Shown piece after piece: positions 6,205 through 9,005 of a stretch of 64,000 nucleotides of DNA. Location of the stretch: contig NZ_JACVPN010000001.1 of NCBI RefSeq assembly GCF_018881855.1, positions 868,001-932,000 of the forward strand, in the 5' to 3' direction. Below the pieces are notes generated by a model that saw only the letters and a list, made by a program, of their open reading frames with translations, was not told where the DNA came from and searched no databases. The position numbers and the translations under genes were made by a program. Origin of the DNA: Polynucleobacter sp. MWH-Berg-3C6. GTDB lineage: Bacteria; Pseudomonadota; Gammaproteobacteria; Burkholderiales; Burkholderiaceae. Within the stretch, counting starts at the first letter, position 1, and the number at the start of each line of letters is the position of its first letter.

Positions 6205-6210
6205 ACAATA
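6205..6210 (-). promoter_or_regulatory. -10 element of the PhoB-dependent pstS promoter
   Basis: On the minus strand TATTGT begins exactly 10 bases after the Pho box. That is the spacing in PhoB-activated promoters, where the box replaces the -35. Transcription would begin near 6198, leaving a leader of about 38 nt before the ATG at 6160. Confidence 0.6.
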
Positions 6211-6220
6211 CGTTTTCACT

Positions 6221-6238
6221 ATGACGATTTAATGACAA
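6221..6238 (-). promoter_or_regulatory. Pho box (PhoB-binding site) upstream of pstS
   Basis: On the minus strand the site reads TTGTCAT-TAAA-TCGTCAT: two 7-bp half-sites 11 bp apart start to start with an AT-rich 4-bp linker. The consensus is CTGTCAT, four A/T-rich bases, CTGTCAC. Each half-site is close to consensus, and the position relative to the -10 and to pstS is correct. Confidence 0.85.
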
Positions 6239-6339: not shown

Positions 6340-7371
6340 TTAAATGATTCTTTTAAGTTTTAATGCGGCAAAAACTGCAGAGCCAGCAATTGACATCAGA
6401 ACCATGACCTCGTAAAAAGAGCCCTTTAAGCCTGGAAGGTCTTCCATATTCATACCCATGATTCCAGAAATAAGGGTCATAGGCAAGAAAATCACCGTCA
6501 TTACGGAAAGAACTTGCAAATTTTTAGCATTGAATTCAGCTACGTGAGCAGCCTGCTCGTCCTGAAGCACCTTCGCCCGATCATAAAGACTAGAAATTTC
6601 TTGAACTAAATAGGTGAGCAAGTCCAAGTCATCGTTCAAGCTGTCCTTGTCTTCATTACTAAACCAATAAGGTAATCGCTTCAGAAGACGATGTAGGGCT
6701 ATTAACTCTGGTGAAAATTGCCTACGGAGGCGACTACATTGAATGCGTATCCTACCTAGATTTTCATGCTCTGGAAACTCTTTGCCCTTCAGTAGATTTT
6801 CCTCCAGATCATCCATATCTCCCGCGAGATGGGTGAGCAAAGTACGAAGTTGCTCAGCGCGCAAATCTAAGAGCTCATGAAATAGCTCAATAGCAGAGAC
6901 GGGATTAATCTGACCATTTCTCAAGTCATATCTAAGCTTATCTGTAGTTCTGAGAGGATTGTTACGTAAAGAAATCATGAGCCTTGGTGTAATAATTGCC
7001 CATAGGGTGCCCAGACTGGAATCATTCACCGCCTCTCCAAACTCCTGCTGGAAATCATTCATTACCATTAAGAGGCAGTCGTCTAGCTTTTCAATACGTT
7101 CTAAGCGACTCAGATTTACACCTTCCTGAATCATCTCTACCACGCGTTCGGGAATGAGCGGCGTGCTTTTAAGCCATCGCTGAATTTGAGAGTTGGATAA
7201 ATTTAAATGCAACCAAATTGATAAATCAGGATTTTCTAGTGCTTCGGAAATTTCAAATAATGGTAGTTCATAGCCCTTGCCAGATGACGGTATTGCCCAA
7301 GCAAATACAACGCCTGCAATTGGTAACGGATTGACATCTGAATAAGCTAACATGCGCGAATTGTAAGCCAT
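6340..7371 (-). CDS. CorA-family divalent metal ion transporter
   Basis: An inner-membrane channel of the CorA (2-TM-GxN) family, which carries Mg2+, Co2+ or, in the ZntB branch, Zn2+. The 343 residues have a long cytoplasmic funnel domain with a charged helical stretch before the membrane part. Two C-terminal membrane segments lie at about 285-304 and 318-337. The pore signature GMN is at about 306-308, followed by MEDLPGLKG in the periplasmic loop. The loop composition does not decide between Mg2+ and Zn2+, so no symbol is given. It reads divergently from the plus-strand islet, and its start is 24 bp from the Pho box at 7395-7412. Confidence 0.9.
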   Translation of the reverse strand: MAYNSRMLAYSDVNPLPIAGVVFAWAIPSSGKGYELPLFEISEALENPDLSIWLHLNLSNSQIQRWLKSTPLIPERVVEMIQEGVNLSRLERIEKLDDCLLMVMNDFQQEFGEAVNDSSLGTLWAIITPRLMISLRNNPLRTTDKLRYDLRNGQINPVSAIELFHELLDLRAEQLRTLLTHLAGDMDDLEENLLKGKEFPEHENLGRIRIQCSRLRRQFSPELIALHRLLKRLPYWFSNEDKDSLNDDLDLLTYLVQEISSLYDRAKVLQDEQAAHVAEFNAKNLQVLSVMTVIFLPMTLISGIMGMNMEDLPGLKGSFYEVMVLMSIAGSAVFAALKLKRII

Positions 7372-7394: not shown

Positions 7395-7412
7395 CTGACA
7401 TAGTTTTGTCAC
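7395..7412 (+). promoter_or_regulatory. Second Pho box, upstream of the outer-membrane protein gene
   Basis: The plus strand reads CTGACAT-AGTT-TTGTCAC, two half-sites 11 bp apart, each with one mismatch to the consensus CTGTCAT/CTGTCAC. The sequence TAGAAA (7423-7428) lies 10 bases downstream, matching the -10 at four of six positions and at the same distance as in pstS. This puts transcription start near 7435. The box also lies between two divergent genes, so an effect on the corA-like gene is possible. Confidence 0.7.
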
Positions 7413-7461
7413 AATACTTCGCTAGAAAACAATGTCATTACTTTGGCTCATTAATATCTTC

Positions 7462-8292
7462 ATGAAATATATTTTTCTGGGTCTATTTATGTTAGCCACT
7501 TCTGCGGCGGCATTTGAGCCATTGAATACTGACGATGCAGGAACGGTAGTTGCTTGTGGAAATCAGATTGAGCAGTACTATTTCCTAATAAATAGATCTG
7601 GAGGATCGCAATCAAGCGATATCATTACTCCTGGAGAAGAATACTCCGGCTCAACAGATGCAAGGGCATTCCCTTTTACCTATACACGAGGTTTAAGTGA
7701 CACGGTCGAGGCATCGTTCTCAACCACCTATTACACCCAGCCAAATGGAAATTTTTCAAGGTTTGCAAACTATGTATTCGCAACTAAGTGGCGATTTCAG
7801 GAGGATCTAGCTAACAGATATGCACTTGCAATTAAGCCAATTGTCATTCTGCCTGCGAAGCAACAGCAACAAGTAGCTGGTCTTGGTTTGGCGGCATTCA
7901 ATTATGGCTTCAACTTCATAGGCTCCAAGTACTGGGATGAGATCGAAATTCATGCAAATGCATCCTATTTATGCTCGCCATACAACACAAACTACAGTAT
8001 TGGACGCACTGCAGATAGTAGCCGCACTGATATTTTCCTTTTATCTATTGCCCCAGTTTTTTCGATAGCATCGGGTATGCGGCTGGCTCTTGATGTAGGG
8101 GCCACAACTAACCCTGCAAATGATGAACAATATTTAAGTTTTTACTCATTAGTGGGAGTAATTTATTCATTAACTCAAAGTGTTGATATAGCAACCTCTT
8201 ATATGCGAACAGCTTTAAATTACAGCGCAACTATTGGGGCAGCTAGTGCCGGCTCCTCAAGAGCAGAAATTGGATTCACCTGGCGATTCTAA
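7462..8292 (+). CDS. Putative outer-membrane beta-barrel protein (phenol MetA-type transporter family), Pho-box controlled
   Basis: A predicted exported protein of 276 residues. I choose the ATG at 7462 (MKYIFLGLFM) because it gives a clean signal peptide of about 17 residues ending SAAA. The Pho-box promoter would also start transcription near 7435, downstream of the alternative ATG at 7432. The mature N-terminus EPLNTDDAGTV and the later TRGLSDTVEASF resemble the family described as MetA-pathway phenol-degradation outer-membrane transporters. Alternating polar/hydrophobic strands and a final phenylalanine (TWRF) fit a beta-barrel C-terminal signal. The substrate is unknown; the Pho box suggests a role in phosphorus limitation. 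Family call moderate, function inferred. Confidence 0.7.
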   Translation: MKYIFLGLFMLATSAAAFEPLNTDDAGTVVACGNQIEQYYFLINRSGGSQSSDIITPGEEYSGSTDARAFPFTYTRGLSDTVEASFSTTYYTQPNGNFSRFANYVFATKWRFQEDLANRYALAIKPIVILPAKQQQQVAGLGLAAFNYGFNFIGSKYWDEIEIHANASYLCSPYNTNYSIGRTADSSRTDIFLLSIAPVFSIASGMRLALDVGATTNPANDEQYLSFYSLVGVIYSLTQSVDIATSYMRTALNYSATIGAASAGSSRAEIGFTWRF

Positions 8293-8376: not shown

Positions 8377-8796
8377 ATGGATTATCAGATCATTCCTTTA
8401 GAAATAGGCTCAATTACAGAGCGACATATTTTTCAATGTGGAAAAAAGGAAATTAAGTGCGGTATGGTATGGAAGCTAGGCTCAGTTATAACCCACACTA
8501 AGCCTACATTTCTTCATAACTATAATCCTGACATCGGAATTTGTATACAAGACATACCCGGTGGAACAGTTGGTGAAACCTATGGCGGAGAAAAGGTAAT
8601 TTACTTTTCTGATACCGTAGATGAAGATGAGCAGAATGAATTAACGGATATCTTTTACGAAAGCTCCAAGAAATATTCCAAGAACTATGCTGACGTCTTT
8701 CATGATCTAGGATGGAAAGAAGTTAGTGCAGAATCTTATATTTTTGGAGAAATTGAAGTTATAGAGCTCAATCAGAATCCAAAACTATACAAATAA
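8377..8796 (+). CDS. Hypothetical protein, 139 residues
   Basis: I do not recognise this protein. It has no signal peptide or membrane segment and looks like a soluble cytoplasmic protein with a mixed alpha/beta pattern. The middle (VDEDEQNELTDIFYES) is acidic and helical, followed by a lysine-rich patch (SKKYSKNYADVF). A G-run at 8365-8369 before the ATG could act as a ribosome binding site. It follows the outer-membrane protein gene by 84 bp on the same strand and precedes the phosphoesterase remnant by 2 bp, so it may belong to the same phosphate-linked group. It is more AT-rich in feel than the flanking core genes. Confidence 0.7.
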   Translation: MDYQIIPLEIGSITERHIFQCGKKEIKCGMVWKLGSVITHTKPTFLHNYNPDIGICIQDIPGGTVGETYGGEKVIYFSDTVDEDEQNELTDIFYESSKKYSKNYADVFHDLGWKEVSAESYIFGEIEVIELNQNPKLYK

Positions 8797-8798
8797 CA

Positions 8799-9005
8799 AT
8801 GTGACTTTTCAGGCTACTTATATTTGCATTTATAGCTATATCCTCCGCCGTAGTGTTAGCGTAGTCATTCAAGTTCATCGCTCTTGGCGATATGCCCTAC
8901 AAAATTCCGAATGATTATGTTCGCTACGAAAGATTGATTGCAGATATTAATAAGGCTAACACCAGCTTTACCCTTTTCATTGGTGACTTAAGAGGTTGGC
9001 ACTAA
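8799..9005 (+). pseudogene. Remnant of a secreted metallophosphoesterase gene, two nonsense codons and 3' truncation
   Basis: One frame from the ATG at 8799 reads M-stop-LFRLLIFAFIAISSAVVLA-stop-SFKFIALGDMPY and continues to FTLFIGD before ending at 9005. The first part is a textbook signal peptide. The part from FKFIALGDMPY resembles the N-terminus of calcineurin-like metallophosphoesterases, with the GD metal-binding motif and a second FIGD block. Both stops (TGA 8802-8804, TAG 8862-8864) are one C-to-T change from CGA and CAG. Similarity ends where the convergent glmM gene ends, so the rest has been deleted. Homology is from memory of the family and needs a search. Confidence 0.65.

Follow-up and report, generated by a model that had tools for sequence, protein, structure and literature searches.

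A predicted PhoB-dependent promoter upstream of an outer-membrane beta-barrel gene in the phosphate cluster of Polynucleobacter

The DNA analyzed here, referred to as the window, is a stretch of 64,000 nucleotides from Polynucleobacter sp. MWH-Berg-3C6 in which phoB, phoU, pst and corA genes form a phosphate cluster. Within this cluster, a plus-strand gene at positions 7462 to 8292 encodes a 276-amino acid outer-membrane beta-barrel protein with a signal peptide, recognized by inspection, and 12 predicted strands. It is followed on the same strand by a conserved ORF of 139 amino acids (8377 to 8796) that gave no family match above the cut-off in Pfam (best E value 0.017, below the cut-off) and no match in NCBIfam. 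We compared 23 named loci, 18 from Polynucleobacter and five from unclassified beta-proteobacterial metagenome bins; the 139-amino acid ORF was present in eleven of them, not always adjoining the barrel gene. Next to it, at 8799 to 9005 on the plus strand, lies the decayed remnant of a gene for a protein with a metallophosphatase fold, which is full-length in relatives. The remnant has two early stop codons, is truncated at the glmM end and is not functional here.

On the other side of the barrel gene, corA is transcribed divergently. Its promoter and start (7351 to 7365, minus strand), assigned from the sequence and from relatives, consist of the -10 element TACAAT (7365-7360), six bases and an ATG codon (7353-7351), so that 7353 is the most likely corA start and 7371, the first position of the longest ORF, is probably not. 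The corA gene appears to be leaderless: in all 16 corA-bearing loci among L001 to L017 (corA is missing at L016), ATG follows TACAAT or TACACT after exactly six bases, and L018 has eight bases between the -10 element and ATG.

Upstream of the barrel gene, a 7-4-7 direct repeat at 7395 to 7412 on the plus strand, CTGACAT-AGTT-TTGTCAC, corresponds to a candidate PhoB box, as judged from the sequence, matrix scans and conservation. Its half-sites (7395-7401 and 7406-7412, with the spacer AGTT between them) each contain one mismatch to the reference CTGTCAT/CTGTCAC. Ten bases past the box is the -10 element TAGAAA (7423 to 7428), whose position is conserved among orthologues. By inspection, no -35-like hexamer was seen 17 bases, the usual distance, from TAGAAA; at 7395-7428 the box stands in place of the -35 element, about ten bases ahead of the -10. 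The letters and layout given for this site by the first-pass annotation were thus exact, and its statement that the geometry equals that of the pstS promoter in the window also held, as the latter (6205 to 6238, minus strand, read from 6238 to 6205), which we used as a reference site, shows the box TTGTCAT-TAAA-TCGTCAT, 10 bp and the -10 element TATTGT. A ten-base distance between box and -10 is likewise found in E. coli Pho promoters.

The E. coli pstS, phoA and ugpB promoters share the 7-4-7 direct repeat with the barrel site. The E. coli consensus is CTGTCAT-A(AT)A(TA)-CTGT(CA)A(CT); the box of phoA reads CTGTCATAAAGTTGTCAC (PMC3465305). The barrel promoters differ from this consensus in that their first half-site is usually TGACA: this was the case in 16 of the 17 nearest upstream regions, that of the window included, compared with the TGTCA of pstS. 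A TGACA half-site is nevertheless present in an E. coli PhoB ChIP-seq site, that of ugpB (PMC10294691). The target gene considered here is not one of the seven reported operons that a passage of this paper names.

Taken alone, the box is a weak to modest match, and sequence by itself is insufficient for the claim. A search of the window with the 18-base consensus, allowing up to three mismatches, returned three matches against 4.95 expected, that is, no enrichment, although 7395-7412 was the best of the three, with two mismatches. The whole genome has two exact matches to YTGWCAYNNNNYTGWCAY: the site itself and a second match to YTGWCAYN4YTGWCAY, which lies within the coding region of a dxs-like gene, named by inspection. 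With up to two mismatches allowed, the genome contains 309 matches versus 225 for the reversed pattern used as control, so that the matching of single sites tells little. A matrix trained on pstS boxes gave p = 0.03 for the 150-bp region upstream of the barrel gene (200 Markov shuffles). In this genome the same matrix scored the barrel site at 21.4, a site before ppx at 20.9 and one before an alkaline phosphatase gene at 15.5, and its scores were all negative for the eight remaining genes in the scan (corA, DUF2252, a tautomerase-like gene, a low-molecular-weight phosphatase gene, mgtC, phoB, phoU and glmM).

It is the conservation of the element across orthologous upstream regions that lifts it above chance. 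The pstS gene was matched in 174 genomes, and a box was present in all 44 pstS upstream regions examined, which are themselves the training set of the matrix; 43 of these boxes precede the start codon by 76 to 79 bases and one by 94, and a -10 element follows ten bases later. A search of 186 genomes of the genus gave a barrel match in 83 (E ≤ 0.001, counting weak and fragmentary ones), and 75 upstream regions of the gene were examined after leaving out fragmentary or very weak matches and L145, which has almost no upstream sequence. The pstS matrix reached p ≤ 0.05 in 47 of the 75. We relied on a strict test of all 75 rows, none dropped, which required the best box to lie between -55 and -75 and TA to occupy precisely the -10 position. 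It was passed by 54 regions, whereas 300 column-permuted matrices passed 2.0 regions on average and 32 at most, none reaching 54. Some of the 54 may have passed by chance; L016, for instance, passes and has p = 0.16 with the pstS matrix. Among the 21 failures, about nine (L126, L137, L138, L140-L142, L144, L146 and L152) have, on visual inspection, a good box that is either spaced by nine bases or followed by a start codon placed too far downstream; the remaining twelve were not credited, and some of these, such as L021, L028 and L030, are not distant. A thinned version of the test, which left out the near-identical rows L005, L006, L011, L014, L015, L121 and L122 as well as the non-fitting L030, gave 12/12 and 20/20. 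Information content was higher in the half-sites, the four-base spacer and the -10 element than in the flanks, a contrast that is inflated by anchoring on the best site. Conservation among orthologues, named as a check by the first-pass annotation, was therefore borne out by both the 54 strict passes and the 47 regions with p ≤ 0.05. Beyond the genus, a family-wide search found weaker barrel relatives (E ≤ 1e-10) in three of the 24 other genera sampled.

Genome-wide ranking pointed in the same direction. A mixed model was built from ten pstS and 16 barrel promoters, with the barrel site of this genome left out and its pstS promoter kept in. In its own genome it ranked pstS at 18.3 bits, the barrel site at 14.5 and ppx at 14.0, the next hit having 8.8, so that the withheld barrel site came second genome-wide, between pstS and ppx; the corresponding E values were only 0.119 for the barrel and 0.175 for ppx, followed by a gap to 8.74. 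A 34-base model made from pstS promoters only (R1) was rejected: it finds pstS and misses the barrel site in both the genome and the window, and it carries spacer and -10 letters specific to pstS. Two further sites lie outside the window, before genes identified by Pfam. The Ppx/GppA exopolyphosphatase gene is preceded by a Pho-type promoter with the box ATTTCAC-CAAT-GTGTCAT, 10 bp and TAAAAT (L181:5792-5825, minus strand), and the alkaline phosphatase gene (PF00245; L181:6852-8597, minus strand) has the box GTGTCAC-AGAT-CTGTCAT with a poor -10 element. PhoX had no match in this genome, and the phoX gene of locus L100 showed no good box with the pstS-trained matrix (score 5.8).

Concerning the regulator, a domain search for the OmpR-type DNA-binding domain (Trans_reg_C) returned exactly one match in the genome, PhoB, encoded at 905 to 1618 on the minus strand. 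Together with the conservation of the box and the second rank of the site in the mixed model, this lends good support to the assertion of the first-pass annotation that the box places the barrel gene in the phosphate regulon. We conclude that there is good sequence support for counting the barrel promoter as a predicted member of the Pho regulon, and that 7395-7428 is very probably a PhoB-dependent promoter of the gene at 7462-8292, which would belong to a phosphate-scavenging set.

Three other readings of the site were weighed. It could be a sigma-70 promoter of the ordinary kind, or a target of another regulator, with an incidental likeness to a Pho box, given that TGACA resembles a -35 hexamer and that the repeat of the window can also be read as the inverted repeat TGACA-N6-TGTCA. 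However, -35 and -10 elements are usually separated by 16 to 18 bases, and the -10 would be 22 bases away from a -35 placed at the first half-site and 11 bases away from one at the second, both distances falling outside this range. Moreover, both halves are TGACA in six of the 17 nearest regions (L004-L006, L010, L012 and L014), which breaks the inverted repeat and keeps the 11-base direct repeat. No second OmpR-type domain was found in the genome either, in a search restricted to this type, and we hold an ordinary promoter or another regulator to be very unlikely. The least credible reading is that of a chance match with no regulatory role: matches of similar quality do occur elsewhere, as seen from the exact one inside the dxs-like gene and from the 309 versus 225 reversed matches, yet the box, its position and the -10 element are conserved across the genus, which contradicts it.

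The box might instead serve the divergent corA gene, or corA and the barrel gene both. In the window it lies inside the 108-base region between corA, starting at 7353, and the barrel gene; corA is near the barrel in both of the gene orders described below and, by tblastn, divergent from it in L018-L020 too. Nevertheless, the corA -10 element is 29 bases away from the box, the matrix scan of the corA strand was empty (best score -1.5), and the box upstream of the barrel gene is kept where corA is downstream, as in the second gene order, and in L016, where corA is absent and pstS is the divergent neighbour. A role of the box in corA transcription thus seems very improbable, and a PhoB-dependent promoter of the barrel gene remains the preferred reading.

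The position of this promoter also bears on the barrel start codon. The ATG at 7432-7434 lies upstream of the inferred transcription start (about 7435), and it is with the residue encoded at 7462 that the best orthologue alignments start; both observations support 7462 as the start, in agreement with the earlier choice of this codon over 7432.

The identity of the barrel is less certain. The window protein matched neither Pfam nor NCBIfam, NCBIfam gave no match for two barrels, and PF13557 was matched by one of 19 aligned barrel members (E value 2.5e-4). A sequence search of the barrel profile against solved structures found none up to E 1. The predicted structure has 12 strands with a mean pLDDT of 68.5 (under 50 for residues 1-26), and its best matches were about equal: FapF (Z 20.5), the COG4313 channel 4rl8 (Z 19.5) and KdgM (Z 19.2). 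The 4rl8 protein, Pput2725, is a channel of COG4313/PF13557 (Phenol_MetA_deg), which we take to be one family. Channels of this family have an N-terminal segment that occludes the barrel; in the window protein the N-terminal residues 1-26 are those modelled at low confidence. The barrel resembles Pput2725 in the 12 strands and a similar length, aligning over 219 residues with an rmsd of 3.3; it differs in having 11% identity, no Pfam match and a location in a phosphate cluster. The amyloid secretion channel FapF (PDB 5o65) was matched over 223 residues with 12% identity, tied with 4rl8, and no fap genes were present among the neighbours scanned with Pfam. Because FapF and KdgM match equally well, the fold fails to single out COG4313/PF13557. 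The MetA-type label of the first-pass annotation is therefore plausible, and neither secure nor proven. The phosphate-inducible porins OprP and PhoE are outer-membrane channels under PhoB control, as is proposed for the barrel, but they are 16-stranded trimers whereas the barrel is predicted to have 12 strands. The COG4313 family has been tied to the uptake of hydrophobic molecules (PMC4493636).

The barrel gene and pst-pho genes lie within 10 kb of each other in 20 of the 23 named loci. The exceptions are L111 and L113, on contigs under 4.5 kb, and L097, with none in the 7.9 kb to the contig end or in 10 kb on the other side. Two gene orders were observed, and the box is kept in both. In one, the barrel gene is divergent from corA and next to pstS. 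In the other it reads towards a convergent phoR-phoB-phoU-pst operon, with corA usually downstream on the same strand; L100 is an example in which PhoX is encoded upstream, within the cluster. The single example inspected for each order also shows DUF2252 and a low-molecular-weight phosphatase/ArsC-like gene by the pho cluster (L181:8679-11144 and L100:7537-9585, both on the minus strand). The metallophosphatase-fold gene, which in relatives often accompanies the barrel gene, was found in 18 named loci and is full-length in 16 of them, being shortened in L100 and a remnant in the close relative L113. A full-length relative has a predicted metallophosphatase-like fold (pLDDT 82.8) and a signal peptide recognized by eye; its best structure matches were Lmo2642 and then, lower, human CD73, with TM about 0.5. 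Sequence searches with this phosphatase-like protein found no solved structure up to E 1 and no NCBIfam family, and in Pfam a single sub-cut-off match with E 0.026.

Since a box of the pst type is kept in many relatives, the barrel is probably made when phosphate is short. We infer PhoB binding, induction, channel activity and substrate according to the following scheme. Under phosphate shortage PhoR would phosphorylate PhoB, a dimer of which would bind both half-sites, positioned where a -35 element would be, and recruit RNA polymerase to the -10 at 7423-7428, with transcription starting near 7435. The barrel would then be made along with the pst transporter and probably alkaline phosphatase and exopolyphosphatase; in relatives the set would also include a secreted metallophosphatase-like enzyme. 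The barrel would most likely act as an outer-membrane channel for a phosphorus-bearing compound or one released by phosphatases. A more specific proposal, which we advance tentatively and regard as rather unlikely, is that a COG4313/MetA-type barrel and the adjacent secreted metallophosphatase-fold protein form a PhoB-induced outer-membrane uptake unit of Polynucleobacter, through which hydrophobic phosphoesters (fragments of phospholipids or lipid phosphates, for example) would enter and be dephosphorylated in the periplasm. If this were true, channels of a family associated with hydrophobic carbon compounds would have a role in phosphorus nutrition, and the genome of the window would retain the channel after loss of the partner enzyme.

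In the available parts of the literature, no link between COG4313, MetA-type or PF13557 channels and PhoB or phosphate appeared among the matches listed, and those on Polynucleobacter and the Pho regulon held no link to the barrel. With the barrel gene, a known regulon gains a new predicted target, and an as yet unnamed outer-membrane barrel from freshwater bacteria acquires a likely regulator, PhoB, with phosphate shortage as the likely condition. The genome, in which one OmpR-type regulator was found, offers a Pho regulon that is small and testable, and the result suggests that a channel family of hydrophobic carbon compounds may also take part in phosphorus acquisition.
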